From Terriglobales bacterium (GTDB lineage Bacteria > Acidobacteriota > Terriglobia > Terriglobales > Acidobacteriaceae): 64,000 bases of DNA. Shown here in pieces: positions 39,746-62,572 of this stretch. The stretch covers positions 1-64,000 of the forward strand of contig DATMXP010000009.1 in NCBI GenBank assembly GCA_035561515.1. The letters are read 5' to 3'. Made by a program: the position numbers and the translations under genes. The notes under the pieces are model-generated. The model did not search any database, was not told where the DNA came from, and saw only the letters and a program-made list of their open reading frames with translations. Within the stretch, counting starts at the first letter, position 1, and each line of letters starts with the position of its first letter.

Positions 39746-40084
39746 CTAGTTAAAGGATGCGACGGCGTCTTCCTCGGAGTCGTAAACCTCGAAGAGGTCC
39801 AGGAGGCCGACCATCTTAAGGGTTTTCTGAGTGTAAGCAGTGGGCTGCACCAGTTTGATGCTGCCACCCTGTTGTTTCGCGGCTGTCTGGCTGCGAACGA
39901 GGACGCCAATGCCGCTGGAATCGACGAGCGGGACTTCAGAGAGGTTAATCAGAATGCGGGTATCGCCCGCACTGATGGACTGCTCTATAGCGTCGCGAAA
40001 GGAGTCCACGGCCTGCCCGAGGGTTAGACGTCCACGCAACCGAACAACCTGAACATCTGCCTGCTTCACTAAGGAAAGATCCAC
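39746..40084 (-). CDS. STAS-domain anti-sigma-factor antagonist
   Basis: A 112-residue single STAS domain. The phosphorylatable Ser is in EVPLVDSSGIGVLV, and the strand-helix pattern (QVVRLRGRLTLGQAVDSF; ILINLSEV) is standard. Such proteins bind an anti-sigma kinase when unphosphorylated. No partner kinase or phosphatase is in the window. I start at GTG 40084, preceded by GGGGGA; the longer frame to 40183 lacks a signal. It is divergent from the GAF-HlyD gene. Confidence 0.88.
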   Translation of the reverse strand: MDLSLVKQADVQVVRLRGRLTLGQAVDSFRDAIEQSISAGDTRILINLSEVPLVDSSGIGVLVRSQTAAKQQGGSIKLVQPTAYTQKTLKMVGLLDLFEVYDSEEDAVASFN

Positions 40085-40228
40085 CAAGTCCCCCGAAAAA
40101 TGAGCAATTAAGGTTCGTTGACCTAGGCCCGACCGTCTGATACAGTTCGCGCCCAAAGTAGCCAAAAAGGATTGTTTTGGCAAGTCTTGGGGTTGGGTCC
40201 ATGTTCAGGGGTGGGGTAGGAACGGACA

Positions 40229-42631
40229 ATGGGTACCGAGGGGGCGGTTCGAGTTCTTGATATCGCAGCGTTCGCGTCAGCGCTGCTATCGCAACGCGAA
40301 TTGAGTCCGCGAGCGCGCCAGATCGCATCGCTAATTCAGATGATCATTCCCGACAGCGGAGTGGTCGTCTATGTGTTGGAAGACACAGAGAGCGGGTCGG
40401 TGTGGCGTTCAAAAGCAACAGTCGGCGAGTTGAAAGTTGATGCAACACTGGCGGCCAACCTTGAAGTGTTGCAGGGACTCGCCGTTCACCCGCAGTTCCT
40501 GCTCTTTGATGGAGCCGAACTTGCGCGCGAGGCATACGCCCATCTCGACTTGCGTCGAACGGTAGTCAGTTGGGCTTTGTTGCCAATCCTCCTTGAAGAT
40601 TCTGTTATTGCAGCGGTTGAGATCGTTTCCTTTTCGGAGGCCATTCGCCCTGAACTGGAGGAGTTACTTTCCGGCGCGTTGCGGCTGTCCTCCACAGCTA
40701 TTGCGGCTTCGCTTGACTACGAGCGCGAGCGAAACTCGCAACTCCAATCGATCTCGAGGATGACGCAGTTCTACGACCTGGAGAAGACGTTCAACGCCAC
40801 GATCGAAATTGAAGAGCTGCTTCCGATCATTGCGTCCAAATTTCGCGAAATCCTGAACGTACAGGCTGTAAACCTGTGGATGGTGGAGAGCAGCCAGACA
40901 TTGTTGCTGACGAACTCGGCGGGCGAAGATCCGACGATGCACATCGGATCAACGCAACAAGCAGGTGAGGGGCATGCGTTCGATGTGTCCGAGAGTGGTG
41001 AGCCGAGTGCCGTAGACAGTGCCGATGAACGACTTGCAAAGCGTAACGGGGGAGTGGAGGCAGGCGCCATTTTTTCGCTGATGGCGGCGCCACTTCTCGA
41101 CAAGGAACATTGTGTTGGCGTGGCGGAAATCATCAACCGGCTCGATGGCCAGCCCTTTGATGAAGACGATCTCTTCCTGCTGACAACGATCTGCGAGACG
41201 GCCTCGGGGGCGCTGCACAACGCGGCGCTGTTGCAGTCGGAGCGCAAGGCGCAAATCCTGCAGACGCTGGTGGATGTCAGCAGCGAGATAACGTCCACGC
41301 TAAATCTAGACCGGGTGCTCCAGACCATTGTGAATGGGCCGCAGGCAGTGATCCCATATGAGCGCAGCGCAATTGCGCTGGAGCGTAACGGGCAACTGCA
41401 GTTGAGAGCAGTCTCTGGCATGCTCAAGATCAATTTCGGAGAGCCATCCGTGATTGCTCTTCGAAATCTGGTGGAGTGGCTCTCGTTTACACGAGAGGAT
41501 CTGACTGTCCAACAGCATGACGAACAGATTACGGGCTCGACCGAGCAGACGAAGGAAAGCTTCCGCCATTATTTCGCGCAAACCGGGGTGAAAGGATTCC
41601 ACGCGCGGCTGCTGAATGATGATCAGGGGCGACTGGGACTGCTCGTCTATGAGAGCAGCGATCCGGACTTCCTAAGCTCAGCTCATATCGAACTGATCAA
41701 AATTCTCTCCGGACAGGCGACCGTCGCGCTCCGTAATGCACAGTTGTACCAGGAAGTGCCGTTCATCAACGTGATCGGCCCCATCATGGAGCGCAAGCGC
41801 AAGTTCATGGGGATGGACAGGCAACGGCGTGTGAGGGTTGGGCTTCTGGCGGCAGCGGTGGTGCTGTTCCTGCTTTTCTTCCCGGTTCCCTTGCGAATTG
41901 CGGGCGACGTAAACGTTACTGCGACGCGAACGGCTATGGTGCAACCGGAGTTCGATGGCGTGGTGAAGCGCGTCCTGGTGCGTGAAGGCGATGCAGTGCG
42001 TAAAGGATCGATTCTGGCCGAGATGGATGACTGGGAGTTTCGACGTCTGCTGGCGGAGGCGGAAGCCAAATACAGCAGCGCGGTTTCGGAAATGAACCGG
42101 GCATTGGCGGCCAACGACGGAACAACGGCGGGTGTCCAGCGCGCGAATGTGGCGCTGTGGTCCTCGGAGGCGGCGAGGTTGCGCGAGAAGATCGAAAGAG
42201 CGAAGTTACGATCGCCTGTCGATGGAGTGGTGACGACACCGTTCGTTGAGAATTTCACTGGCCGAAAGCTGGATGCCGGTGAAAAGTTTGCGGAGATCGC
42301 CGACACCTCACATGCGGTTGTCGATGTAGCTGTCGAAGAGCAGGACGTCCCACTGTTGCAGGCTGGGATGTCGGCAGGCGTCAAACTCGACAGTTATCCG
42401 ACAAAGACGTTCCGCGGCAACGTGCTGGTGATCAGCCCGAAAAGCGAACCTGTCGGAGATCAGCGGATGTTTTATGCGCGGGTGGATGTGCCGAATCCGG
42501 ACAGGCTGGTGAAACCGGGCATGCAAGGCACCGCGAAGATCTGGACGGGATGGAAGTCGGCGGGGTACGTGATGTTCCGGCGTCCGGGGATGTGGATGTG
42601 GGGCAAGTTGTGGTCATGGTTCGGCTTCTGA
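40229..42631 (+). CDS. GAF-domain / HlyD-type membrane-fusion protein
   Basis: An 800-residue fusion. The cytoplasmic half has an N-terminal GAF-like domain (about 10-165) and two clearer GAF domains (about 190-335 and 345-505). One membrane segment follows (about 534-553). A periplasmic biotinyl-lipoyl/HlyD-like adaptor ends the protein (about 555-790; VQPEFDGVVKRVLVREGDAVRKGSILAEMD). GAF domains bind small ligands, while HlyD domains bridge inner-membrane exporters to the outer membrane. This therefore looks like ligand-controlled export. It overlaps the next ORF's upstream frame. The ribosome-binding site is AGGA. The ligand and cargo are not readable. Confidence 0.85.
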   Translation: MGTEGAVRVLDIAAFASALLSQRELSPRARQIASLIQMIIPDSGVVVYVLEDTESGSVWRSKATVGELKVDATLAANLEVLQGLAVHPQFLLFDGAELAREAYAHLDLRRTVVSWALLPILLEDSVIAAVEIVSFSEAIRPELEELLSGALRLSSTAIAASLDYERERNSQLQSISRMTQFYDLEKTFNATIEIEELLPIIASKFREILNVQAVNLWMVESSQTLLLTNSAGEDPTMHIGSTQQAGEGHAFDVSESGEPSAVDSADERLAKRNGGVEAGAIFSLMAAPLLDKEHCVGVAEIINRLDGQPFDEDDLFLLTTICETASGALHNAALLQSERKAQILQTLVDVSSEITSTLNLDRVLQTIVNGPQAVIPYERSAIALERNGQLQLRAVSGMLKINFGEPSVIALRNLVEWLSFTREDLTVQQHDEQITGSTEQTKESFRHYFAQTGVKGFHARLLNDDQGRLGLLVYESSDPDFLSSAHIELIKILSGQATVALRNAQLYQEVPFINVIGPIMERKRKFMGMDRQRRVRVGLLAAAVVLFLLFFPVPLRIAGDVNVTATRTAMVQPEFDGVVKRVLVREGDAVRKGSILAEMDDWEFRRLLAEAEAKYSSAVSEMNRALAANDGTTAGVQRANVALWSSEAARLREKIERAKLRSPVDGVVTTPFVENFTGRKLDAGEKFAEIADTSHAVVDVAVEEQDVPLLQAGMSAGVKLDSYPTKTFRGNVLVISPKSEPVGDQRMFYARVDVPNPDRLVKPGMQGTAKIWTGWKSAGYVMFRRPGMWMWGKLWSWFGF

Positions 42632-42642
42632 GGGAGGGACGC

Positions 42643-43545
42643 GTGAGAAGGGCAATCATTTCTCTGGGGCTGCTGGTTGCGTTGGCGTTGCACTTGGGGT
42701 GTAAAACAGCGTCCACTCCGGCGAACGCAACTTCAACTTCCAACGCGAACAAGAGCGCTTCCGAACAGATTCAGCCAGTGCCTACGGAGGATACGGAGTT
42801 CGTTGCTTCCGGGCCAATCACCGTGGAGAACCAACTGGATGTAGCGGTGCAGCGAGATGGGATTATCTCTGAGTTGCTGGTAGATGCAGGTGACTCCGTG
42901 CGTAAAGGGCAGTTGCTGGCGAGATTGGACGATCGTCAGTTAAAAGCAGACCGCGACGCGGCCAGGGCGCAATCGGCAAGTATTGAGGCCGACCTTAAGA
43001 ACTGGGAAGCCACGGTAAAAATGGCGGAAACGGATCTGAATCGTAGCGAAAAGATGTGGGAGAACAAGTTGATCACCGAAAGCCAGGTGGATCACGACCG
43101 GTTCAAACTCGTGGCTACGAAATATGAGTTGGATAGGGAACAGAAAAACCTGCAACGTGCGAACAGCGTGGCAGAATCACTTGAACTGGAAGTGGAGAAA
43201 ACAAGGATCGTAGCGCCCTTCGACGGTGTAGTCGCGCGTCGCTATGTGCGACTGGGGCAGCGGGTGGCAAATGGAGACCGTCTGTTCTGGGTTACGGCGG
43301 TTTCGCCAATGCGCGTGAAGTTCACTCTTCCCGAGAAGTACGCTGCCCAAGTGAGGCGAGGGACGATGTTGGAGGTGGTTCCGAGCGAGATGGCGGAACA
43401 GAAGTACGCGGCGAAGGTGGTGCTGCTAAGTCCGGTCATCGATCCGGCGAGTGGCACGATTGATGTCACGGCAGAACTAGTTGGACCGACCGGTTCGTTG
43501 CGTCCAGGAATGGTCAGCAATATCCGTCTTGAAACCTCTCGATGA
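42643..43545 (+). CDS. Lipoprotein periplasmic adaptor (RND/HlyD type)
   Basis: A 300-residue adaptor. A lipoprotein signal peptide with lipobox LHLGC ends near residue 20. The body has a biotinyl-lipoyl domain (RDGIISELLVDAGDSVRKGQLLARLD), a coiled-coil hairpin (about 95-185) and a beta-barrel. I start at GTG 42643 because GAGGGAGG lies just upstream and the signal peptide begins there; ATG 42616 is an alternative. It overlaps the protease gene by four bases (ATGA). With no RND pump or outer-membrane channel nearby, it must work with partners elsewhere or with its two operon neighbours. Confidence 0.88.
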   Translation: MRRAIISLGLLVALALHLGCKTASTPANATSTSNANKSASEQIQPVPTEDTEFVASGPITVENQLDVAVQRDGIISELLVDAGDSVRKGQLLARLDDRQLKADRDAARAQSASIEADLKNWEATVKMAETDLNRSEKMWENKLITESQVDHDRFKLVATKYELDREQKNLQRANSVAESLELEVEKTRIVAPFDGVVARRYVRLGQRVANGDRLFWVTAVSPMRVKFTLPEKYAAQVRRGTMLEVVPSEMAEQKYAAKVVLLSPVIDPASGTIDVTAELVGPTGSLRPGMVSNIRLETSR

Positions 43546-45695
43546 ATCTAGCTGAAGCACTTGTGCAGGCGTTGCCGGAGCTGCCGACGCAAGTCGTCGC
43601 GAAGCGCAAGTTCAAGTTCAACCCGGACTTGATCGTACGCGACGAAATTGATGACAACGGCCAGCCGATCAAGGTGGTGTTCGTGCCCGAAAAGGGCGCG
43701 ATGTATTACCTCGAGCAGCCGCAGTTTGATCTCTTCAAGCTGTTTGACGGCGAAAGGGATATTGCAGAGGTGGCCCAAGCCTATCTCGAGCAAACAGGCA
43801 CTGCGATCCCGGAGGAAGACGTCAAGGGATTCGCTCTCGCTTCCGTCGATACGGGACTTTGGTATGAGTCGGCGCAAGAACGGAATATCACCCTCAGCCA
43901 GAAGCTGAAGGACGAACGCACTCGCAGGGTCAAGCAGAAGGGCAAGTTCTCTGACCTGTCACACATCATTTTCAAGGGATGGGACCCGGACAAGTTCCTG
44001 ACCTGGGTTCACGAGAAGCTGTGGTTCATCTACACGCCGTGGTTTACAGCGCTGACGATGGGCCTGTTTGCCTTCATGACATGGATCTGGGTGAGCCGGT
44101 GGTCGGAGATCGGGCGCGATACTCTCCTCTATTACACCTTCACGCAAAAGAGCGCGAGCGACTTGCTGGAGTTCTGGCTGCTATTCCTGTTCATGGCGTT
44201 CTTTCACGAATCGGCACATGGACTTACCGCGAAACACTACGGCGCCTCGGTGCACAACATGGGATTCCAGTTGATTTATCTGGCACCAGCGTTTGCGATC
44301 GAGATCACTGAGCTGTGGGCGCGCGTGGGACGGAGGGAGCGATTGTGGGCGATCATCGCCGGGGTGTGGATCGAGATGGTGTTCTGCGCCATCGCGACCA
44401 TCATCTGGTGGGGTACTCCGGGCGGGACGATGGTCCACGAATGGTCATACAAGCTGATGATGATTACGGGGCTGGTAGTCCTCGTGGTCAACATGAACCC
44501 ACTGATGAAGCTGGATGGGTATTACGCGCTGGCAGAGATCGTGGGAGTTTCGGAGCTGAAGGAACGTTCGACGGCGTTTGTCTCCGGTTGGGTTAAGAAG
44601 CATGTGTTCCGGCTTCCCGTGGAGTACGACTACGTTCCGCCGAGGCGGAGATGGTTGTTTGTGCCGTACGCTCTGCTTTCCGGCGCATACAGCTACCTTC
44701 TTCTCTTTGCCGTGTCGCGGTTCACTTACAACGTGTTCCATCGTTTTACTCCGGAATGGGCCTTCGTTCCGGCGGGACTGGTGGCGTGGAAGATTTTCAA
44801 ATCACGCATTCTCCGGTTTGGTGCTTTTATGAAAACTGTGTTCCTCCACAACCTGGATGAATTGAAGACGGCTACGAGTCCAACCACTCGGGTCGCTCTC
44901 TTGGTGGGGCTCGCCGTTGTGCTTATCGTGCCGGTGTTCCACAAGACCGCTAATGGCGTTTTTGTGCTCGAGCCGGTGGAGAAGGCGGTGGTGAGAGCGA
45001 AGGTTCCTGGCTTTGTCGAGCGGATGTACGTGGAAGAACAGTCGCAGGTTCAAGCCGGGGCGCCCATCGCGCAAATGCGGAATCTCGAAATCGAGGGCGA
45101 ACTGGCGAAGGCTTCTGCGGAGCTGGAGGTTGCGAAATCCCGTTACGTGAGGGCCCAGTTGCAGTACGCATCTCTTGGGTCCTCGCAGGCGGAATTCAAC
45201 AGGGCCGAGAGTGTGCAGGAGACCGCCCGAAGCCGGGCTAGCGAATTGTTACCTTCGGCGCCAATTGCCGGGGTGGTAACAACGCCCCGGCCGCGCGACC
45301 TGGAAAAACGTTACGTGGAGGAGGGTACTGAGCTGGCGACCATCGAGAACCTGGGCACCATGCGAGCCAGACTGTACCTGCCGGAATACCAAGTCCGGGA
45401 GATCCACGCCGGTGCACCAGTATCGGTGCGAATGAAGTCCCGCTGGTCGCTGGTAAAGGGACAGGTCGATTACATCGGCGTTGCTCCGTCCGATGTGCCG
45501 CCGGGATTGATGGCGGAGAGCAAATATTCGGGTCTTAGGCCGCCGGCCTTTTATGTTGTCGATGTGCGAATCGCTAATCCAGGAGATTTGAAAACGGGTA
45601 TGTCCGGCGAAGCCAAGATCATACTCAGGAACCAAAGTTTGTTTGGCAAGTTTTGGGGCAACGTGAAAGATTTCGCGGGGCGACGGCTTTACTAG
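43542..45695 (+). CDS. PqqD-like / M50 site-2 protease / HlyD fusion protein
   Basis: A 717-residue membrane protein. A PqqD-like domain (about 45-110), as used to present ribosomal peptide precursors, is followed by a multi-helix M50 metalloprotease core. HESAH (222-226) is the zinc site and LDG (324-326) supplies the third ligand. The C-terminus is a biotinyl-lipoyl/HlyD module (from about 487). The three fused parts suggest recognition, intramembrane cleavage and export of a peptide or signal, all in one chain. That reading is inference; the domain calls are from motifs. It is coupled to the adaptor lipoprotein upstream. Confidence 0.85.
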   Translation: MNLAEALVQALPELPTQVVAKRKFKFNPDLIVRDEIDDNGQPIKVVFVPEKGAMYYLEQPQFDLFKLFDGERDIAEVAQAYLEQTGTAIPEEDVKGFALASVDTGLWYESAQERNITLSQKLKDERTRRVKQKGKFSDLSHIIFKGWDPDKFLTWVHEKLWFIYTPWFTALTMGLFAFMTWIWVSRWSEIGRDTLLYYTFTQKSASDLLEFWLLFLFMAFFHESAHGLTAKHYGASVHNMGFQLIYLAPAFAIEITELWARVGRRERLWAIIAGVWIEMVFCAIATIIWWGTPGGTMVHEWSYKLMMITGLVVLVVNMNPLMKLDGYYALAEIVGVSELKERSTAFVSGWVKKHVFRLPVEYDYVPPRRRWLFVPYALLSGAYSYLLLFAVSRFTYNVFHRFTPEWAFVPAGLVAWKIFKSRILRFGAFMKTVFLHNLDELKTATSPTTRVALLVGLAVVLIVPVFHKTANGVFVLEPVEKAVVRAKVPGFVERMYVEEQSQVQAGAPIAQMRNLEIEGELAKASAELEVAKSRYVRAQLQYASLGSSQAEFNRAESVQETARSRASELLPSAPIAGVVTTPRPRDLEKRYVEEGTELATIENLGTMRARLYLPEYQVREIHAGAPVSVRMKSRWSLVKGQVDYIGVAPSDVPPGLMAESKYSGLRPPAFYVVDVRIANPGDLKTGMSGEAKIILRNQSLFGKFWGNVKDFAGRRLY

Positions 45696-45704
45696 CAATG
45701 AAAA

Positions 45705-45728
45705 AGGCCGCTCATTCGCGAGCGGCCT
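45705..45728. terminator. Terminator of the histone-like gene, possibly bidirectional
   Basis: AGGCCGCTC (45705-45713) pairs with GAGCGGCCT (45720-45728). On the minus strand it is followed by TTTTT, ending the histone-like transcript. It also lies nine bases after the M50 fusion stop and may serve both directions. Confidence 0.75.
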
Positions 45729-45747
45729 GAATCCGGATTGGTTCTGT

Positions 45748-46068: not shown

Positions 46069-46226
46069 CTGTATAGCCTCCAGTTTTTTACAGTGATTTT
46101 CTGAGCCCCTAGTCTTGTCCTTCTCTAGAGCACTCGGCGTGCCAAGGGCAGCTGGAAGCAAAAAGCAAACAATTCGCCCGTTTTTTAGGTTTCAGACGGC
46201 TTTTGGTAAGGACCAGTTTTGTCCTG

Positions 46227-46264
46227 GGACAATTTCTGTCCCTAGCCAGGTACAGAAATTGTCC
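46227..46264. repeat. 13-bp perfect inverted repeat between the histone-like and arsC-family genes
   Basis: GGACAATTTCTGT (46227-46239) pairs with ACAGAAATTGTCC (46252-46264) around a 12-base loop. It lies just after the ArsC-family stop (minus strand) without a T-run. It may be an operator or an unusual terminator. A related GGAC-AGTTTT-GTCC stretch precedes it. Confidence 0.6.
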
Positions 46265-46275
46265 GCCGAGATTGT

Positions 46276-46629
46276 TTACAGACCGAGGTCTCGCAGCTTT
46301 TCAATCGGTCTCGGTATAACGGCCTTACCACCCTTCACGACGATGGGACGCTGGATAAGTTCGGGATGCTTGGCCATGAGTCGGAGCAGGGCAGCGTCGT
46401 CTAGGTCGCGCCCGGCAACGTGCTCCTTGTAAGCAGGTTCGTTCTTGCGGATAGCGTCGGCAGGCCGAAGGCCGGCTGCCTTGAGTAGATTACCCAGACC
46501 TTCTGCCGTGAGAGGCTCTTCGAAGTAATTGACCGCCTGGAATTCGACCCCTTTCTCCGTAAGCTCCTTTTTCACAACGCGACAAGTGGTGCAGGTGGGT
46601 TTCTCGTAGACGATGATTTTCTCTTTCAT
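46276..46629 (-). CDS. ArsC/Spx-family thioredoxin-fold protein
   Basis: A 117-residue protein. The active-site pattern KPTCTTCRVVKKEL near the N-terminus and the C-terminal RPIVVKGGKAVIPRP are typical of ArsC-like reductases and the YffB/Spx group. It could be an arsenate reductase or a redox regulator. There are no arsenic-resistance neighbours (no arsB or arsR), so I prefer the broad family name. Its upstream gap leads to the divergent sigma54 activator. Confidence 0.85.
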   Translation of the reverse strand: MKEKIIVYEKPTCTTCRVVKKELTEKGVEFQAVNYFEEPLTAEGLGNLLKAAGLRPADAIRKNEPAYKEHVAGRDLDDAALLRLMAKHPELIQRPIVVKGGKAVIPRPIEKLRDLGL

Positions 46630-46701: not shown

Positions 46702-48087
46702 ATGTCTTCGTCTGCGGTTCCCAGGAAATCAGATCGACGTCCTGTGCTTATTCTGTCGAGCGACGGGGAGGCTTGCGCCGCGCTTGATGCGGAGCTTTCG
46801 GTTGTGGCCAACGTAGCGCAGGTTCCGGATCTAGATTCACTGTTCACGGTGCTGTCGTCGATTCCGCAGGACCTGCTGGTGTTGGATCTGGATTCCATCG
46901 GCGGGAATCCACGCGAATCCGAGAATGCGGCTTATTCGATCTGCGAACGATTCCCGCAACTCCGCGTGATTGGACTGACACGCTCACGGCAGGCAGCCGG
47001 ACGCATACGCAGCATTATCCAGAATGTGTTCATTGCGCCCGTTGATCCCGACAAGCTGCAAAGTGCCGTCATGGCCTGCCTGAATGGAGATGCTTCGGAG
47101 GCGGCGGACATGGTTCGCGTCACTTCCGACCGTCGTTCTCTCGCCGGTCTGATCGGAGCAAGCGAGCCGATGCAAATGGTGTACGAAGCCATCTTGCGGC
47201 TGGCGGACAGCGGTACGACGGTGCTGATCCGAGGAGAGAGCGGATCAGGCAAGGAATTGGCCGCACGAGCTATGGTTTCACTCGGGCGGCGGAGTGCGAA
47301 GCCGTTCATTAGTCTGAACTGCGCGGCACTGCCGGAATCCCTTATAGAGACCGAGTTGTTTGGACATGAACGCGGCGCCTATACCGGAGCAGATCGAGCG
47401 CGACCGGGACAGATCGAGTTGGCACACACGGGAACGTTGTTTCTGGATGAGATCGCAACCCTGACACTCCCACTACAAAGCAAACTTCTGCGAGTACTGG
47501 AAGACCGGGAGGTCCGCCGGATCGGTGGCAACACAGGGCGTGCGATCGATTTCCGGTTGATCACGGCGACCAACGAGGACCTGGAGGAAATGGTCAAGGC
47601 GGGGCGGTTTCGCGAGGACCTCTACTACCGCATCAATGTGGTGCCGCTAGACCTGCCTCCCTTGAGAGAGAGAGAGGGAGATATTCCTCTGCTGGTCGAT
47701 CACTACCTGAAGCACTTCTGCGCATTGGAGGGCCTGCAGCAGAAGCATATTGCGCCAGAGGCGATAGAGATTCTGGAGGATTACAACTGGCCAGGGAACG
47801 TCCGCGAACTCGAAAACCTGGTACAGCGGCTTGTACTGATGGTTACTGGCGACACAATTGAAGCACGACACCTCCCAAAGTCGGTTCTGTTCGCAAGCCA
47901 TGCGCGGAACGAATCGCTGCTCATTCCGGAAGAGGGGCTGGATTTTCCGAATGAGATGGAGCGCATCGAAGCGGCATATGTGCGGGCCGCATTGCGAAGG
48001 ACCTCAGGGGTAAAGAACAAGGCGGCGAAGCTGTTGAACATTTCTGAGCGACAGATGAAGTACCTGTGTCATAAGCACGGGCTGTGA
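46702..48087 (+). CDS. Sigma54-dependent transcriptional activator
   Basis: A 461-residue NtrC-family activator. A receiver-like domain (about 14-125; Asp62 in LLVLDLDS is the candidate phospho-acceptor) precedes the AAA+ domain (150-390). This has Walker A GESGSGKE, the sigma54 loop GAYTGA (225-230) and Walker B GTLFLDEI. A Fis-type helix-turn-helix follows at the C-terminus (NKAAKLLNISERQMKYLCHKHGL). No histidine kinase is adjacent. The genes that follow are polysaccharide export and a giant surface protein, so exopolysaccharide control is a plausible role. Confidence 0.93.
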   Translation: MSSSAVPRKSDRRPVLILSSDGEACAALDAELSVVANVAQVPDLDSLFTVLSSIPQDLLVLDLDSIGGNPRESENAAYSICERFPQLRVIGLTRSRQAAGRIRSIIQNVFIAPVDPDKLQSAVMACLNGDASEAADMVRVTSDRRSLAGLIGASEPMQMVYEAILRLADSGTTVLIRGESGSGKELAARAMVSLGRRSAKPFISLNCAALPESLIETELFGHERGAYTGADRARPGQIELAHTGTLFLDEIATLTLPLQSKLLRVLEDREVRRIGGNTGRAIDFRLITATNEDLEEMVKAGRFREDLYYRINVVPLDLPPLREREGDIPLLVDHYLKHFCALEGLQQKHIAPEAIEILEDYNWPGNVRELENLVQRLVLMVTGDTIEARHLPKSVLFASHARNESLLIPEEGLDFPNEMERIEAAYVRAALRRTSGVKNKAAKLLNISERQMKYLCHKHGL

Positions 48088-48271: not shown

Positions 48272-51200
48272 ATGAAATTTGGAATTTTGGCCTGCTTCGG
48301 GCGAAGCAGGATCGGGCGCGGTATTGTGTCGGCGCTGGTGGCGGCACTGGTGTTCATTATGGTTGGCGGCAGAGCAGAGGCCGGACCCGCAACGACGGTG
48401 GTGAGCGATGTCGTTTATCGGGCGGACGGAGCGCCAGCGGCAGGACAGATTTTGCTGTCATGGCCTGCGTTTGTGACGGCAGACGGAAAGCCTGTCGCGG
48501 CCGGCACAATGTCGCTGGGGATCGGAGCAGGGGGAAACGTGACGGTGGCGCTCGCGCCAAACGAGGGCGCGAACCCATCCGGCACGTACTACAAAGTGAC
48601 TCTGAAGTTGAATGACGGAACAACAAGCACCGAGTACTGGACGATTCCGCGGAAGAGTCCGGTTAAGGTGGCCGAAGTGAGGTCGCAATTGGCACCGGCT
48701 TCGGTGGCGGTGCAGTTTGCGTCGCGGCAATATGTCGATTCGACGCTGGCGTTGAAGGCGGATGGCGCTTCGGTCCTGCACAAGATCGGCGATGAGCAGG
48801 TTGCCGGTATCAAGGAGTTCGTTGCGTCCCCGCTGGTTCCAATGCCGAGAGTTGCCTCGGCTGTGGCGAACAAGAGCTACGTGGATGCGCAGGTGGCGTC
48901 CGTCAGCACCGGGGAGTTCGTGCGAAAGTCCGGCGACACCATGACTGGAGCTCTGATATTGGCGGGAGATCCAACGAGCACGAACCATGCGGTGAACCGG
49001 CATTACATCGACCTACAAATGGCCGGACTCGCAGGGGCGTTGACGCAAAAGCTTGGTCGCGAAAATGACACGCCAATCACATTGGCAGGCATGCGGTTTG
49101 CAACGCAATTTCCGTCGATTCAGGCAGCGATCAACGATGCCGGAGCGACCGGTTCTGTGGTGATTCCGCGCGAATATCCCGGAATCGACAGCTTCGCGAA
49201 TCCCAACAAGGTGCCGATCATCGACCTGCGGGGTGACGCAAGCTATCGCGGCGTTTACAACGTAAAAGACTTCGGCGCGAAGCCCAACGACGGCGCGGAT
49301 GACTGGCAGGCGATCCAGGCGGCAATCGATGCGGCGAGTGAGGGAAATGGTCCGTATGGTTCCGTCTATGTCCCGCGAGGGATTTTCCATGTAAGTAAGC
49401 CATTGCACATCACGAAGGGCATCCGGTTCTTCGGAGCGGGGCGAGGCCAAAGCGAGATCACTGGTTACTCGGCCGATCAGGGCGCGGTGCTGGTGGTGTC
49501 GCCTCCGACGTCGCTCTATCCGTCGTTGCCGACAGGTGAGTCACTGGTGACCGGGCCGGGGAACTCAATGTATCTGAACGGCGGGTACGATTACCTGCTT
49601 AACCTGCGAGAGAGTGGCGCAGTGGAACTGAACGGCCGCGACGCCCTGACAGTGGAGTTTTACTACAAGCCGGATGAGTCGGTGAGCGCGGGGCTGTACA
49701 ACATCATTTCCTCTTCAGGCACGGTAACAACGACGACAAACGTCGCGTTCTCGATTCAGCATGTAACCGGAGATAGCATCACGGCTTCCTTGAATGTAGG
49801 CGGAGTGTTGCAGTCGGTGACCTCCCCCGCGAACGCGGTCACGCAAGGGAGCGTGGCGCATATAGCCATGACCTTCGACGGAAGCTCGTTAAGGTTGTTT
49901 ATCAACGGGGAACTCAAGGGAAGCACGGCGGCGTCGGGAACGATTTCGCAGGCCGCGGGTGAAGACTTCGTAATTGGGCCTCGAGTCGCCGGATTCATGG
50001 AAAGCACCTTCCTGAATCCGATGGCTAAGGGCTGGATAGATTCAGTGCGGATCTCGAATTTCGCGAGATACAGCGGCAACTTCGCATCACCTACCGCGAA
50101 GTTCACGAGCGATGCGTCTACGCTCTTCCTCTTGAATTTCGACAGCCAGTTCGACCAATTTACGACTGCCAGTACCTGGCTGGGTCCTGAGCACTTGTTC
50201 CTGAGGAGATTCGGCGGGGGCATGGGGCAGGTTGGGAATTTGCATTTGAGCGATCTTTCATTCGTAGGAACCGGGCCGGAGTTCATCTACGTCATCAGCA
50301 GCCTGATCGAAAATGTGCAGGTTTCGTCCGCGCGGCGGGGTTTGCAGTTCCTGAACAATTGCTACCTCAATCGGTTGACGAGCGTGAGGGTGACAGCGCA
50401 ATCGACTGCGCAGTTTGCGCTCGGAATCGGCGCGGCAAGTGGTGTTCTCACGATGACAGACCTTGCGTTAACAGGCGGCAAGTATCCGCTGTATATCGAC
50501 ACATCCAGCGCGACCATTCACGGGCTTTGGGTTGAGGCGAGCAACGGGACAGAGATCGGCGCGGTACTAAAAGGTAACGCGAACACGTCGTTCGTCATTG
50601 ACCAACCGGTGTTCAGTAACGAAACGAATCCGGTGACAGTCCAGTACACGCTGGCAGAAGTCAACGTTGGAAACCTCGTTATGAATGGTGGCGTTCTGGA
50701 AACGTCGAACGGTGCTCCCCACGTGGGAGTGTTCGGTGGAGGATCCCTGGTGCATGTGGCGGGAAACTACTCCCTGGTGGGAACGCCGCCGCAGTGGGTC
50801 TACCACGTTGTGAGTTCGCCGACGAACCCGATCCAAATCACAGGGGCAAGCCAACAACACATGAGCATTCCCTTTGCGAGCAACATGAACGCGGTTCAGA
50901 CTACCTCAGTGAGGACGAACCAAACCTGCAGCGGGACAGACAAAGTGAGCGGGATCAGCAGCGGTGGAACTTTGATCTGTTCGCCCGATCAGGGCGCAGG
51001 CACTGGTTATACCCTGACGCTGTCGAGCACCGGCAGCAACGAACTAGAAAGCGGCGGGACGTACTATTTTGGCGGGGATTTGGTCGGCGGGAACAACACC
51101 AGTTTTGACTTGGCGAAGATCGAAATTCCGAAAGGCGGAATACTGAACCCATTTTACGTTCGACAGAACCTGTCTGTTGCCGCAAGTTCGGCGGCAATGG

Positions 51201-51406
51201 TGGCCCATCGAGTTTGTATCAACAGCGAGGCAAATTGTGTTGGCGGGACTTCGTTCTCCTATAACAGCACCGCGACTGCGGGAACCGATATTTCGTTAAA
51301 CCAGGCGGTCGCAGCCGGGGATACCATCGCAGTTCGAGTGGATACGCCCAATTGGGACACGCGTCCTGCGAACGTGCATTGGTACGCTGTGGCGTACATC
51401 GAGTAG
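48272..51406 (+). CDS. Large secreted protein: tail-fibre-like segment, pectate-lyase beta-helix, LamG domain
   Basis: A 1044-residue secreted protein with a signal peptide (about 1-35). The N-terminal part holds phage-tail-fibre-like motifs (NKSYVDAQVAS; SGDTMTGALILAGDPTSTNH, about 205-250). A Pectate_lyase_3-type beta-helix starts at about 327 (VYNVKDFGAKPNDGADDWQAI). A LamG/concanavalin-like domain follows (about 436-622). The rest is Ser/Thr/Gly-rich beta structure. It could be a trimeric surface fibre or a polysaccharide-binding or -cutting protein. There is no clear catalytic signature I can confirm. It lies between the sigma54 activator and the export gene. Confidence 0.8.
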   Translation: MKFGILACFGRSRIGRGIVSALVAALVFIMVGGRAEAGPATTVVSDVVYRADGAPAAGQILLSWPAFVTADGKPVAAGTMSLGIGAGGNVTVALAPNEGANPSGTYYKVTLKLNDGTTSTEYWTIPRKSPVKVAEVRSQLAPASVAVQFASRQYVDSTLALKADGASVLHKIGDEQVAGIKEFVASPLVPMPRVASAVANKSYVDAQVASVSTGEFVRKSGDTMTGALILAGDPTSTNHAVNRHYIDLQMAGLAGALTQKLGRENDTPITLAGMRFATQFPSIQAAINDAGATGSVVIPREYPGIDSFANPNKVPIIDLRGDASYRGVYNVKDFGAKPNDGADDWQAIQAAIDAASEGNGPYGSVYVPRGIFHVSKPLHITKGIRFFGAGRGQSEITGYSADQGAVLVVSPPTSLYPSLPTGESLVTGPGNSMYLNGGYDYLLNLRESGAVELNGRDALTVEFYYKPDESVSAGLYNIISSSGTVTTTTNVAFSIQHVTGDSITASLNVGGVLQSVTSPANAVTQGSVAHIAMTFDGSSLRLFINGELKGSTAASGTISQAAGEDFVIGPRVAGFMESTFLNPMAKGWIDSVRISNFARYSGNFASPTAKFTSDASTLFLLNFDSQFDQFTTASTWLGPEHLFLRRFGGGMGQVGNLHLSDLSFVGTGPEFIYVISSLIENVQVSSARRGLQFLNNCYLNRLTSVRVTAQSTAQFALGIGAASGVLTMTDLALTGGKYPLYIDTSSATIHGLWVEASNGTEIGAVLKGNANTSFVIDQPVFSNETNPVTVQYTLAEVNVGNLVMNGGVLETSNGAPHVGVFGGGSLVHVAGNYSLVGTPPQWVYHVVSSPTNPIQITGASQQHMSIPFASNMNAVQTTSVRTNQTCSGTDKVSGISSGGTLICSPDQGAGTGYTLTLSSTGSNELESGGTYYFGGDLVGGNNTSFDLAKIEIPKGGILNPFYVRQNLSVAASSAAMVAHRVCINSEANCVGGTSFSYNSTATAGTDISLNQAVAAGDTIAVRVDTPNWDTRPANVHWYAVAYIE

Positions 51407-51444: not shown

Positions 51445-51530
51445 TTCCTCAGTAATAACGCTCAGGCCCGGAAGCGAGACGGTTGGGCAAGGATGCTGTG
51501 CTAAACTTCGGGCAACTTCCAAGGAGTTTC

Positions 51531-52493
51531 ATGCGCCGCCGGTCGACAGGTTTTGTTGCCTTTCTACTTCTGTGTTTTGCCTGCTTATTTGTATCGAGCT
51601 CGTTATGTCAAACTGTGGAACCGCAGGTTCCAGTGCCTGGCTCGAACAACAGCGCTAACGCGGCACTCGCCCCGCCATCTTCAAGGAAATTAAGGGTGGG
51701 TCCGGGTGATCTCATCGAGGTGAGCGTGTATGGAGTGTCGGATTACAAACACGACGTGCGCGTGGCCGATTCGGGTGAGGTCTCGTTGCCGTTAGTTGGA
51801 GTTGTGGGGGTGGGAGGCAAGACGATTGAAGAAGCCCAAGAACAGATTGCAAGTGCCATGAAAGCGGGCAATTACTTCCGTGATCCGCACGTGATGGTAC
51901 TGATCAAGGATTACGCTTCTCAGGGTATTTCGATCATGGGGGAAGTGATCCGCCCGGGCGTGTATCCGGCGATGAGCACGCGGCGGCTTTACGATGTGGT
52001 GTCACTGGCCGGCGGATTCACGGTGAAAGCCGGAAAACTGGTGACGATTACGCATCGCGACAGGCCGAATGAGCCGGACAAGGTGATGATCACAAACGAT
52101 CCCGCGAGATCGATGGACAGCAACGTTGAGGTTTATCCGGGCGACACGATCGTTGTATCCAAAGGCGGGGTGGTGTATGTGGTGGGCGACGTGGTGAGGC
52201 CGGGTGGATACGTAATGGAACACTCGGAGCACATGACCGTGCTTGAAGCAGTGGCGTTGGCGCAAGGTCCCAATCGAACGGCCGCACTCGGCAAAGCGAG
52301 ATTGATTCGTCGGGCGGGCGGGAAACCGCAGGAAATCAAAGTGCCGCTGAAGGCGATCCTGGCGGCAAAAGCAGACGACATGGAACTCGTGCCGGACGAC
52401 ATTCTGGTGATTCCCGGCAGCGCAGCCAAGGCGCTGGCAAAGCGCAGCACCGAGTCAATTCTGCAAATCGCGACGGGGCTGGCTATCTTTTAG
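51531..52493 (+). CDS. Polysaccharide export protein (Wza/OPX family)
   Basis: A 320-residue outer-membrane export protein. A signal peptide (about 1-24) is followed by the Poly_export domain (VGPGDLIEVSVYGVSDYKHDVRVADSGEVSLPLVG). Two SLBB-type domains follow (GISIMGEVIRPGVYPAM; GGVVYVVGDVVRPGGYVMEH). The terminal helix (STESILQIATGLAIF) resembles the Wza pore helix. ATG 51531 has AAGGAG five bases upstream; the frame from 51483 is an extension. The canonical lipobox is not evident. It probably works with the glycan operon on the other strand. Confidence 0.92.
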   Translation: MRRRSTGFVAFLLLCFACLFVSSSLCQTVEPQVPVPGSNNSANAALAPPSSRKLRVGPGDLIEVSVYGVSDYKHDVRVADSGEVSLPLVGVVGVGGKTIEEAQEQIASAMKAGNYFRDPHVMVLIKDYASQGISIMGEVIRPGVYPAMSTRRLYDVVSLAGGFTVKAGKLVTITHRDRPNEPDKVMITNDPARSMDSNVEVYPGDTIVVSKGGVVYVVGDVVRPGGYVMEHSEHMTVLEAVALAQGPNRTAALGKARLIRRAGGKPQEIKVPLKAILAAKADDMELVPDDILVIPGSAAKALAKRSTESILQIATGLAIF

Positions 52494-52515
52494 CGGAAAC
52501 ACTTCAAGGCGGCGG

Positions 52516-53661
52516 TTACGCTTGCGCGGCCGCCGTTCTTGTTTGTCTGGCTGAAGTTTCTGCAATAACTTCCTCATACAATTCCATAGTTTGCTGCGCC
52601 ATGCCGGAGAGAGTGAAACACTCCCGGACTCTTTGGCGGGCGCCTTCCGACAAACGGCGATGCATGTCGCGGTCGCGAAGGAGAACCGTGATTGCCTGCG
52701 AAAGAGCCTCGACACTGGCCGGGGGGACCGTGAGTCCGCTGACGCCGTGTTTCGAGACGAAGGGAACCCCGGAATCAAGTTGCGTGTTGATTACTGGTGT
52801 GCCGCACGCCATGGCTTCGAGTTGCACGATGCCGAAGGCTTCACTGCGAGCGATGGATGGCAACGCAAATATGTCCGCAGCGTGATAGTAGGGCCGGAGA
52901 TCGGAAACTTCGCCCCGGAGGTGAATGCGGTCGGCGCAGCGAGAATCTCGTGCGAGGGTTTGCAACGTCTCATGCAGCGGGCCGGTGCCTATGATCAGCA
53001 AACTGGCGTCAGTCTGGGCGATAGCGCGGACGAGATATTCAAATCCTTTGTAATAGACCAACCGCCCGACGCTGAGAACGATTTTGCTTCCATAACGCTG
53101 CCGGAGTTCTGCGACGCAGTTTGGATCGACATCGCGAAATCTTTGATCATCGACCCCATGAGGGATGACTCGGCATTTGTCGCGATACGGCGAAAGCGTT
53201 GCAGAGCTATCGAGATAGTTTGGCGAGAAGGAAATGATACGGGCGGCACGGGACATCAAACGCTTGAGCCAAGGCTCATAAAGGTATTTGAGCCATTGCT
53301 GGCGGACGATGTCACTATGATGTGTAACGACCAGCGGTGCCGGATGCTGTGAAGCGAAATAGGAAATGACGGCGGTGGGATTCGGCGAGTGCAGGTGAAT
53401 GATATCGGCGGGCGTGCTGCGAATCCATTTCACCATTTCAGGGCAAACTGGGGCGGAAGCCACATTCACCAAGGTCCCGATGCGATGAACACGGATAAGA
53501 CCGTCGGACTCGTGGACGGTACGAGTTGAAGAGTTTGCGACGATCACATCGAGATCGGCTTGGTGCGATATTGCCCGGCAAAGCTCCTGGAGATGCGTTT
53601 CCATTCCGCCCTTGAAAGGTGGATAGAACTTGCCAACGTGGAGGATGCGCGGCCGGGTCAT
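52516..53661 (-). CDS. GT4-family glycosyltransferase
   Basis: A 381-residue GT-B fold enzyme. RILHVGKFYPPFKGGMETHLQEL at the start, VGRLVYYKGFEYLVRAI for the nucleotide-sugar domain, and SEAFGIVQLEAMACGTPVI with the E-x7-E motif place it in family GT4. Sugar and acceptor are unknown. The start overlaps the upstream gene's stop in ATGA. It is the last gene of the glycan operon. Confidence 0.93.
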   Translation of the reverse strand: MTRPRILHVGKFYPPFKGGMETHLQELCRAISHQADLDVIVANSSTRTVHESDGLIRVHRIGTLVNVASAPVCPEMVKWIRSTPADIIHLHSPNPTAVISYFASQHPAPLVVTHHSDIVRQQWLKYLYEPWLKRLMSRAARIISFSPNYLDSSATLSPYRDKCRVIPHGVDDQRFRDVDPNCVAELRQRYGSKIVLSVGRLVYYKGFEYLVRAIAQTDASLLIIGTGPLHETLQTLARDSRCADRIHLRGEVSDLRPYYHAADIFALPSIARSEAFGIVQLEAMACGTPVINTQLDSGVPFVSKHGVSGLTVPPASVEALSQAITVLLRDRDMHRRLSEGARQRVRECFTLSGMAQQTMELYEEVIAETSARQTRTAAAQA

Positions 53662-54830
53662 TTTGCGAGCACCCGCTCGTAGATCTGAGCAACTTTCGCC
53701 GCGTGCGCTTCCCAACTGAAGTGCCGAGCGTGCTCACGCAGAGCTGTATGGCTGGGTGGCGAAGCAAGAGTTCTCAGGATCGCATCCGTCCAGCGGCCAA
53801 TGTCGCCAGCGGGGCAGAAGCAAGTGTTTGCGCCGCCGATTTCTCGCAGGGCTGGGATGTCAGACGCAACCACGGGGGTTCCACAGGCCATTGATTCAAT
53901 CACGGGCAAACCAAATCCTTCGGCTTCCGACGGTTGAAGCGTTGCCGACGCTCGGCGATAGGCGGCCGCGAGCATCGACGGAGTCAGCCGCGGGATGAAA
54001 TCGATGGCCTGCGTCAACTGCAAATCGTTCATGAGTCGTTGTTGTTCGATTGTGAACGGGGTTCCGACGCGAAGAAGTCGAAGCGACGGGAGTTGTTGTC
54101 GCACGGAGGCAAATATCTTCAATAGCAGATCAATGCGTTTGCGCGGGATGGTGCTTCCGACATGGAGGAGTTCGGGAACTACTCCGGCTGGCCGTTGAAT
54201 TGTCTCGGCAAGCGCATGGTCAGCGGCATCCGATTCAGGACTCAAATCCGGATGGACACCGTTATGTATAACGGTCAATTTGTTCGCCGCGATGAGTTGG
54301 TGTCGCAGAATCTGATCGTGAGTAGCGACTGTATTACAGACGACATGCGCTGCCATTTGGAAGCCGCGCAGAATGCGGCGGGTCATCAGCCGGTATGCGA
54401 AAGAGCGCGGTTCACGCGCGGGCTCGATGAGGCAGCGGAACGTGTCCAGATCATGACATGTTACGATCGTGCGTTCAGGCGGCAGATCGTGGACCAGTTG
54501 GGAATAGCTGTGATCCACGATGTGAAACAGGTCAAACTGATCGCGAATAGTGCGCAGATGTCGTGCATATTGCACGAAACGTCCGTATAGGCGGCTGGCT
54601 TTGCCAGGGGATGTGGCACCGTATCGGAGCATAGGTCGTATTAGCCCTACTGCTAACTCGGTGTGCTGGCCGGACAGATTCTGGTAAAGCATATCCGCGA
54701 CCAGGTCCATGCTGGGCCAATTCTCTTCCGCAAAATCGCAGACGATAGCGACTCGCTTCGGCCGACAGGATATCGCCTGAGCCGGTGATTGCATCGAGTT
54801 GGCGGATGTCTCCACGCTATTTGCCTGCAA
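53658..54830 (-). CDS. GT4-family glycosyltransferase
   Basis: A 390-residue GT4 enzyme. Key blocks are KRVAIVCDFAEENWPSMDLV, LHVGSTIPRKRIDLLLKIF and SEAEGFGLPVIESMACGTPVV. The N-terminal 20 residues may be an extension; the frame overlaps the methyltransferase by 14 bases, and ATG 54794 would remove this. It belongs to the overlapping glycan operon. Confidence 0.9.
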   Translation of the reverse strand: MQANSVETSANSMQSPAQAISCRPKRVAIVCDFAEENWPSMDLVADMLYQNLSGQHTELAVGLIRPMLRYGATSPGKASRLYGRFVQYARHLRTIRDQFDLFHIVDHSYSQLVHDLPPERTIVTCHDLDTFRCLIEPAREPRSFAYRLMTRRILRGFQMAAHVVCNTVATHDQILRHQLIAANKLTVIHNGVHPDLSPESDAADHALAETIQRPAGVVPELLHVGSTIPRKRIDLLLKIFASVRQQLPSLRLLRVGTPFTIEQQRLMNDLQLTQAIDFIPRLTPSMLAAAYRRASATLQPSEAEGFGLPVIESMACGTPVVASDIPALREIGGANTCFCPAGDIGRWTDAILRTLASPPSHTALREHARHFSWEAHAAKVAQIYERVLAK

Positions 54831-55539
54831 CCACCATGGAGTGAAGCCCTAACCATCTTGTGATCACGCGCGGATGATCGAGTTTATCGACGAGCATCCA
54901 GGGCCGCCCCGGAATGGGCAGATACATGCCCCGCGATTCATGACGCAATACCCGAAGACCAGCATGACGGATCCAACGCAGAGTTCGCGGCAGCATGACG
55001 AGGTGGTTGATGGGCTGTCCGGTTTCGGTGAAGGGTGTACCTTTGAGCCTCATATATCCGCGATACAGCCCCATGAGGTTCAGATAGTTGGGGGTAGTGA
55101 GGAACAGCTTCCCTCCGGGACGAAGAACGCGGGCGAGTTCCGATACGCCTCGGCGCGGATCGGGAACATGCTCGATTGTGTCGCATGAAACAACGTAATC
55201 AAAACTGCTGTCCGAATGGGCGATCGACTGCATATCGGTGACTTCCCAATCAATATCCAGCCCGAGTGAACTTGCCAGTTCCTTTCCCCTAGTTACACCC
55301 GAGAAGGAGAAGTCAGCTGCTGTCAAATGGGCGCGAGTATTGATGGCGAGCCAGCAGGAGAAGTCACCCCGGCCACATCCAATTTCAAGGACGCGCTTGC
55401 CGGAGAGTTTCTCGTTAAGCAGAAGGGGCTTCAGCATCGAATGCCACGGGGTATTGGCCTCGATGTCGATGTCCGGCTTCAAATGCCATGTGTCGTACGC
55501 TTCGCGGGAACTGGTGGTCGCGACAGGGGGCACACTCAT
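54817..55539 (-). CDS. SAM-dependent methyltransferase
   Basis: A 240-residue class I methyltransferase. Motif I is VLEIGCGRGDFS, motif II-III is SFDYVVSCDTIEHV, and RVLRPGGKLFLTTPN is also typical. It probably methylates a sugar or caps the glycan chain, as O-antigen locus enzymes do; a specific acceptor is not readable. I start at ATG 55539, which overlaps the upstream stop by ATGA; the longer frame to 55653 runs inside the neighbour. Confidence 0.88.
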   Translation of the reverse strand: MSVPPVATTSSREAYDTWHLKPDIDIEANTPWHSMLKPLLLNEKLSGKRVLEIGCGRGDFSCWLAINTRAHLTAADFSFSGVTRGKELASSLGLDIDWEVTDMQSIAHSDSSFDYVVSCDTIEHVPDPRRGVSELARVLRPGGKLFLTTPNYLNLMGLYRGYMRLKGTPFTETGQPINHLVMLPRTLRWIRHAGLRVLRHESRGMYLPIPGRPWMLVDKLDHPRVITRWLGLHSMVVAGK

Positions 55540-57890: not shown

Positions 57891-59074
57891 GCGGTACACC
57901 TCTCGAAAATCTGCAGTAATTGCGCGAGGTGGGCATCGAGCGAATAGGCCGCCGAGCGGGCAAAAGCGCCGGTGCAAAGTTGACGGTAATGATCGGGGTC
58001 GCTCAACGATTTTACGACGGCATCCGCAAGCGATCGTGATGTGGCAGGAAGCGAAGCGAGGTGCCCGTTGATGCCGTCGTGAAGCCATTCTGGTATGCCG
58101 CCCACGGCGAAGGTGACGGTTGGGACGCCAAGCTGTCCGGCTTCGAGTCCGGAAAGACCGAATGGTTCCGGCCAGATGCTCGGCATGATCAACAGGTGCG
58201 AATTGGCGATCCGTCTCTGAACTTCAACTGCGGACAGCCATCCCGTGAATTCGAACGCGACTGCCTCGGAGGTGATTGTCCGAGCCTGTTTCTCCCAACT
58301 TCCGCGCTCTGGGCCGTCGCCAGCGAAAGTTAGAGACAGCCGTCTGGCAAGCCGACGTTGAATATCGGGAAGAGAATCGATGAGCAGATGGCCACCCTTC
58401 AGCGCATGCATACGGCCGGCAAACATCAGTCGAAGCGGGTCGGTCGCGAAATCATGTGAACAGGGTGGTGCTGCATTTACGCTTCCTGTGAACGGGTATA
58501 CACAATCGGAATGTAAGCCGTGAGCTGACAGCTCTCGCGCCATGTATCCGGAGTTCGCTATTAGCGCGCGATAACGTCGCATCAGTTCAAGACGACGACT
58601 CTGAAGGCGATAGCGAGACAGCATGGTGAAAGGGTTGCGTCCACCGCAGTGATCGGGAAAGTAGTGGAGCAGGCATTGGGGTCCGAACTGACGTTGACAA
58701 GGACCAGGCGTGCTGCCATCCACAGTTTTGTTCCCGCTGATACAGGTACCGTAGTAGTTATGGACGTACAGGGCGCCACAACCGAGAGCAACTACCGCAG
58801 CCTCCAGGTCCGGGTCGTGTAATCCGTGCACGAAGCAGATATCCGGATGCCATTCTCTCAACGACGCTAACGCCATCGTTGAGGAAGAGGCTGAAACACA
58901 CCATTGGGGTACCTCGTCGGGGATCGAAATCCGATCGTGAGTGGAATCGGGATCGTCCTCAAATAAGCAGGCAAGTTCGTGACCAGCACGTGCAAATGCG
59001 GGAATCACGGCGCCGAGATAGACCTCGGCTCCGCCGACCTTACGCCGGCTGTGATTCACAAATGCGATGCGCAT
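57887..59074 (-). CDS. GT4-family glycosyltransferase
   Basis: A 395-residue GT4 enzyme. MRIAFVNHSRRKVGGAEVYL opens the acceptor domain. FAGRMHALKGGHLLIDSL and PEPFGLSGLEAGQLGVPTVTF belong to the donor domain. A Cys/His-rich insert (VHNYYGTCISGNKTVDGSTPGPCQ...) in the first domain is common in such enzymes. I start at ATG 59074; the longer frame to 59179 lacks support. Confidence 0.9.
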   Translation of the reverse strand: MRIAFVNHSRRKVGGAEVYLGAVIPAFARAGHELACLFEDDPDSTHDRISIPDEVPQWCVSASSSTMALASLREWHPDICFVHGLHDPDLEAAVVALGCGALYVHNYYGTCISGNKTVDGSTPGPCQRQFGPQCLLHYFPDHCGGRNPFTMLSRYRLQSRRLELMRRYRALIANSGYMARELSAHGLHSDCVYPFTGSVNAAPPCSHDFATDPLRLMFAGRMHALKGGHLLIDSLPDIQRRLARRLSLTFAGDGPERGSWEKQARTITSEAVAFEFTGWLSAVEVQRRIANSHLLIMPSIWPEPFGLSGLEAGQLGVPTVTFAVGGIPEWLHDGINGHLASLPATSRSLADAVVKSLSDPDHYRQLCTGAFARSAAYSLDAHLAQLLQIFERCTA

Positions 59075-59112
59075 TGATGTGCGTATTTTAGCGTGAGAAG
59101 TTGTTGAAGCTG

Positions 59113-62571: not shown

Positions 62572-62572
62572 C

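Follow-up and report, generated by a model that had tools for sequence, protein, structure and literature searches.

The question raised by this locus is what three adjacent genes could export, given that they encode two HlyD-type adaptor chains, an adaptor lipoprotein and a membrane protease and are accompanied by no pump. HlyD-type adaptors normally assist a pump, a point that counts against reading such genes as an export cassette in their own right. An initial annotation of the window (by which we mean the whole 64,000-nucleotide stretch of the Terriglobales contig DATMXP010000009.1 that was analysed) had described three coupled genes that could recognise, cut and export a peptide, and had put the combination forward as a candidate undescribed export system. 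The features of the window that bear on this question are collected in Table 1.

Table 1. Positions and supporting observations for the exporter genes, the small peptide gene and the associated regulatory features of the window.
Feature	Positions	Strand	Observation
STAS protein, anti-sigma antagonist-like	39746..40183	-	Divergent from the operon
GAF-HlyD protein, 800 aa	40229..42631	+	ORF and domain search; found in 35 of 35 loci
Adaptor lipoprotein, RND_mfp family	42616..43545	+	Clustered in 30 of 35 loci
RRE(PqqD)-M50-HlyD protein, 717 aa	43542..45695	+	ORF, domain search, models and 26-member alignment
GC-rich inverted repeat, terminator-like	45705..45729		Between converging genes; fold of 45696-45745 = -21.9 kcal/mol
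Candidate substrate peptide, 106 aa	45748..46068	-	Leader MEKKSLIASRDVVRKAIIA, then about nine AAKAPAKL repeats
Sigma54 -24/-12 promoter TTGGCACGCCGAGTGCT of the peptide gene	46129..46145	-	Geometry shared by 67 of 68 distinct leader ORFs
GGACAATTTCTGTCC palindrome, probably an enhancer site for the activator	46227..46241		Diverged from the relatives' GGTTAA-N3-TTAACC
Second, imperfect palindrome GTACAGAAATTGTCC	46250..46264		23 bp further up; spacing type as in relatives
Sigma54 activator, AAA+ and Fis HTH	46702..48087	+	Degenerate receiver-like N-terminus

All three open reading frames are present, and their order (GAF-HlyD, adaptor, M50-HlyD) is kept in 35 loci, the window included. The first protein is laid out as a cytoplasmic GAF region followed by one transmembrane segment and a periplasmic HlyD adaptor. 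Where the initial annotation had spoken of GAF domains in the plural, the domain search returned a single clear GAF domain (residues 194-329) flanked by weaker GAF-like sequence. HlyD domains were found in both of the chains for which they had been claimed, as an HlyD_D23 match at residues 555-765 of the first protein and an HlyD match at residues 480-645 of the third. The second protein was likewise borne out as an adaptor, the reading frame at 42550-43545 matching RND_mfp with 173 bits against a cut-off of 94.9. Position 42616 is the likelier predicted start of this gene, rather than the opening of the frame at 42550, because the protein then has a lipobox (LHLGC) and the gene overlaps the preceding one by 16 bases.

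The third chain combines a predicted RRE (residues 22-109), an M50 protease carrying HESAH (222-226) and LDG (324-326), and an HlyD part (465-700). HESAH and LDG are invariant or nearly so in 26 aligned relatives, and residues H222, E223, H226 and D325 do not vary among them. The PqqD domain named in the initial annotation is weakly visible by sequence, with a Pfam PqqD match in just 2 of the 26 members, and was recovered as a fold. In the AlphaFold models (mean pLDDT of 82 for the whole chain and 87 for the N-terminal domain), residues 22-109 adopt an RRE/PqqD fold that is matched best in the PDB by complexes of lasso B1 with its leader (Z 9.6 and 9.2), with further matches to TigE (Z 9.1) and PqqD (5sxy, Z 7.8). 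The N-terminal domain of the M50 chain thus models as a RiPP recognition element (RRE), which is a leader-binding fold. The modelled M50 core resembles SpoIVFB (Z 10.9), and the modelled HlyD part resembles the MacA/MexA adaptor (Z 18.8).

The resemblance of the HlyD domains to MacA/MexA, together with the above-cut-off RND_mfp score of the lipoprotein, would suit ordinary efflux, in which the adaptors would work with an RND or ABC small-molecule pump encoded in trans and the M50 chain would be a site-2 protease with a regulatory role. We hold this to be very improbable, as none of the relatives has a conserved pump at its locus (35 loci), and efflux leaves unexplained both the RRE domain and the constant linkage to a leader peptide that is documented below. 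In the window, neither an RND nor an ABC gene adjoins the three genes, and a scan of 20 large ORFs turned up no ABC genes apart from a Wzt-like polysaccharide pair at 61-63 kb. A TolC-type gene is likewise absent from the window, the 32 OEP stretches of the genome all lying on other contigs, so the initial annotation was correct in placing no RND pump, ABC exporter or TolC in the locus. A second, exporter-specific SecA was not found in the genome, which has the canonical SecA alone.

Within the order, the M50 protein occurs in 38 of 200 genomes, and the best 80 loci in a named genome collection are all acidobacterial (Edaphobacter, Granulicella, Candidatus Sulfotelmatobacter, Acidiferrales and others). 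A sigma54 activator gene follows the operon in 32 of the 33 loci that are free of a contig-end cut, while the STAS gene is clustered in 18 of 35 loci and recurs in a distant acidobacterial clade. Beyond the exporter, the activator and STAS, the 35 loci share no other widely conserved gene cluster, and no peptide-modifying enzyme is conserved among them. The window carries an ArsC/glutaredoxin-like gene (46276-46629) between the peptide gene and the activator; its locus has been rearranged, because the activator of the relatives lies on the other strand and no ArsC-like gene is found there. Further along, positions 51483-63448 encode a polysaccharide export protein, many group-1 glycosyltransferases and the Wzt-like ABC pair, and this region is a predicted capsule or O-antigen cluster beside the peptide locus.

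Between the M50 gene and the activator lies, in the relatives as in the window, a small open reading frame that the initial annotation missed and that adjoins the operon in every intact main-clade relative. This frame is always convergent with the exporter operon, lying directly downstream on the opposite strand. The annotation had recommended a search for conserved small ORFs nearby, and that search gave a clear answer: all 33 first-set main-clade loci whose sequence extends downstream have a leader-bearing ORF, as do all 31 additional main-clade loci having at least 400 bp downstream. About the first 20 residues are conserved, with the alignment consensus MxxQKKSLIxxRxAxKKAxxA; the window peptide begins with MEKKSLIASRDVVRKAIIATTPNAVGTSVTKV and continues in AAKAPAKL repeats. 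A Sec-like hydrophobic stretch is absent from the N-terminus and leader, and a GG motif is absent from the leader alignment. No curated family of NCBIfam or Pfam matched the small ORFs above cut-off, and the matches below it (HC2, collagen, pentapeptide, TigB, extensin) follow composition and were rejected.

The leader and the exporter occur together. A leader profile matched 26 of the 200 genomes, all of them within the 38 that are exporter-positive and none among the 162 that are exporter-negative (Fisher p = 9e-24). Ten of the 12 exporter-positive genomes missed by the profile have more divergent leaders that were found by motif, and the other two are cut by contig ends. The matches lie at the exporter locus save for two on other short contigs, both from genomes whose exporter gene abuts a contig end.

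The small gene also carries regulatory signals of its own. The sequence TTGG-N10-GC lies 58-106 bases upstream of the start in 67 of 68 distinct leader ORFs, and a sigma54 site agreeing with at least 10 of 13 consensus positions was detected for 55 of the 68, compared with 55 of 4000 random windows. Palindromes of the form GGTTAA-N3-TTAACC were found upstream in 52 of 63 cases against 100 of 3000 windows; in relatives they are often paired, about 22 bp apart, roughly 85-160 bp above the promoter. The window retains the promoter but its palindromes are of a GGACA type. The activator listed in Table 1 probably regulates the peptide gene. A sigma54 promoter of the exporter operon itself was sought and not seen. 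In one relative (L071) the locus has no activator gene and carries an additional leader ORF, of the KKSI type, that lacks a good sigma54 site.

Behind the conserved leader, the peptides differ greatly. Significant periodicity was detected in 52 of 64 peptides, with periods of 3-13 residues and 49 distinct units (SKVAA, NKLAP, GLSGGK, GGFQGP, MAADAGS, NSPLS and LAKSTN are examples). Core 4-mers are hardly shared below 80% M50 identity, a range in which the leader averages 45-84% identity. Single-base codon changes between adjacent repeats of the 28 clearest genes were synonymous in 648 cases and non-synonymous in 62; the expected synonymous share is about 30%. Neighbouring repeats do not give independent counts, but the excess greatly surpasses what this could produce. 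The ORF is therefore translated, and selection holds the repeat unit constant inside each species although the unit turns over between species. Cysteine occurs in 1 of 64 peptides, aromatic residues make up less than 1%, and the net charge of the core ranges from +21 to -20, with 61 of 64 cores net cationic.

Such predominantly cationic cores, several of them Lys/Ala-rich and 2 of 10 matching HC2/H1 models below cut-off, are what an intracellular basic protein might look like, and the Lys/Ala-rich core of the window could also suit a DNA-binding protein. The small repeat protein would then resemble histones of the H1/HC2 kind or regulate the exporter, and the exporter would carry another substrate. 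We judge this improbable. The spread of charge, together with the Gly-rich GGFQGP and acidic MAADAGS repeats among the core types, is unlike DNA-binding tails; moreover, it is the leader that is conserved, the exporter has a leader-binding fold in its RRE, and the leader was never met in an exporter-less genome (0 of 162).

Rather than an intracellular protein, we consider the small peptide to be the probable cargo, and we think it reasonably probable that the locus is a leader-dependent peptide processing and export cassette. The sigma54 activator, acting on paired upstream palindromes, would switch on the small peptide gene, in whose product a basic N-terminal leader, conserved among relatives, precedes a repetitive core that is specific to each species. 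The PqqD-like RRE of the M50-HlyD chain would bind this leader, and at the inner membrane the M50 site would sever it from the core. A periplasmic conduit through which the core is exported may then be built from both HlyD-type membrane proteins together with the adaptor lipoprotein. This conduit would dock on a TolC that must come from elsewhere, given the positions of the OEP stretches. As to the energy source, neither an energised transporter nor an outer-membrane channel is encoded in the locus, and this counts against the reading, as does the presence of the canonical SecA alone. The recognise-cut-export scheme of the initial annotation is strongly supported on the substrate side by a leader ORF with its own sigma54 promoter in every intact main-clade relative, its recognition and cutting steps resting on structure and conservation.

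The properties of the core also bear on what the exported product might be. Uniformity of the repeats within a species would fit either a fibre that assembles itself or a precursor whose multiple cores are copies of one short peptide, and a self-assembling or cohesive, lineage-specific peptide of the cell surface or matrix is our tentative suggestion. A signal peptide seems rather doubtful. Core chemistry and charge are too varied for a uniform membrane-active antibiotic, and an antibacterial role is unlikely.

The same exporter layout extends beyond the main clade. A distant acidobacterial clade (31-33% identity) lacks the KKSLI leader and has a different basic leader family; 14 of 16 of its loci have, in the gap, from one to three mini-genes for basic peptides, for example MAKKTLKKAKKLEATKPLTIVGVGRQ. 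A sigma54-like site was found at 22 of 25 of these mini-genes, some of which are repetitive (LQRGAGV, LQRAS, PSFTLK). Six loci (L172, L175, L178, L181, L184 and L185) contain two or three tandem mini-genes of 22-46 aa downstream of M50, mostly with their own sigma54-like site; they represent a second leader family, MAKKTLKKAKKLE.TKPL, without a known family. Two loci of other families have yet another type of leader, the third, SVTIKLTEKQRTQIKSATG, also accompanied by a sigma54 site (L236 at 6918 and L234 at 6084, both on the minus strand of the oriented loci), and in L236 it is followed by about 20 SALASK-type repeats. Matches on cyanobacterial plasmids were rejected as relatives, being plain site-2 proteases in unrelated surroundings.

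Proteobacterial plasmids present a different neighbourhood. On these plasmids (records L214-L217, L220, L221, L226 and L227), distantly related GAF-HlyD, PqqD-M50-HlyD and adaptors lie beside giant exoproteins of up to about 12,700 aa with LEPR-XLL/VCBS/Ig features, some with an N-terminal LEPR-XLL motif, and DUF3467, TolC and a SecA-like ATPase accompany them in differing combinations. These operons probably constitute an undescribed giant-protein secretion system. Such neighbours suggest that the acidobacterial machine, too, could export large surface proteins encoded elsewhere, with the small ORF as a structural element of the conduit or an accessory to it; the window itself encodes, at 48272-51406, a 1044-aa protein with an apparent signal peptide and LamG and pectate-lyase-like folds. 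We regard this explanation as quite improbable, because the 1044-aa gene, which was considered as a substrate, lies outside the neighbour clusters that the relatives conserve, the 35 loci have no large exoprotein in common, and a complete change of sequence between species would be unexpected in a conduit component.

Several known systems share features with the locus, which differs from each of them. With RRE-dependent RiPP systems it shares the RRE fold, the intact HExxH and LDG motifs, and a short precursor whose leader is conserved and whose core varies. The closest parallel is the daptide peptidase MpaP (NF041824, daptide_HExxH), an RRE-dependent intramembrane peptidase that takes off the leader (PMC10036551); RRE and M50 share one chain there as well, and a leader-bearing small precursor lies nearby. 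However, the window protein matches this model at residues 50-405 with 118 bits, below the 300-bit cut-off, and is fused to HlyD, no modification enzyme is conserved, and the precursor is repetitive and otherwise unlike. Type 1 secretion and tripartite efflux (HlyB-HlyD-TolC, MacAB-TolC) share the HlyD/MacA-type periplasmic adaptors and the possibility of a TolC in trans, whereas the present locus encodes neither a pump of the ABC, RND or MFS type nor an outer-membrane factor, and its protease is M50 rather than C39. The PCAT/NHLM double-glycine exporters resemble the proposed system in leader-dependent recognition, cleavage and export of small peptides, but here no C39-ABC transporter is conserved and the leader has no GG cleavage motif. 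The LEPR-XLL loci of Thalassospira, Methylosinus and Pontibrevibacter plasmids share the homologous GAF-HlyD, PqqD-M50-HlyD and adaptor set and a substrate with a short N-terminal motif. They differ in that the neighbour has about 4,000-12,700 aa, compared with peptides of 22-185 aa in acidobacteria, and in having, in varying combinations, their own TolC, SecA-like ATPase and DUF3467, none of which, nor any giant, is conserved at acidobacterial loci. Although the locus falls outside the daptide, PCAT and classical T1SS families on the features examined, it would work like a leader-dependent peptide exporter.

In the searched literature, which covers journals other than subscription ones, we found no description of M50, HlyD and PqqD together or of a site-2 protease with HlyD; the searched text of RRE surveys and of a T1SS review contains no such fusions. 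LEPR-XLL exporter loci were the subject of no study in the same literature, where two papers name LEPR-XLL, once each. The view of the initial annotation that the system is undescribed agrees with these searches, and it needs qualification in that the core is not unique, homologous sets occurring in the proteobacterial operons with TolC, SecA-like ATPase and giants. It is possible, and we advance it with reserve, that the RRE-M50-HlyD/GAF-HlyD/adaptor set is the core of an undescribed secretion class of at least two phyla that works without a classical pump, with leader-selected cargo of 25 to more than 10,000 residues, whose acidobacterial cargo would be a hypervariable repeat peptide serving as a lineage-specific signal or self-assembling coat.

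Many soil acidobacteria, then, look as though they hold an undescribed peptide-secretion system. If this is right, it would constitute a secretion route without an ABC, RND or MFS pump, the RRE fold would gain a role in export, and the acidobacterial leaders would hint at the substrate logic of the proteobacterial giant-exoprotein loci. It would also mean that dozens of lineage-specific secreted peptides have been overlooked because the genes for them are very small and repetitive and belong to no known family, and it would provide a testable extracellular peptide system for an abundant and poorly understood group of soil bacteria.
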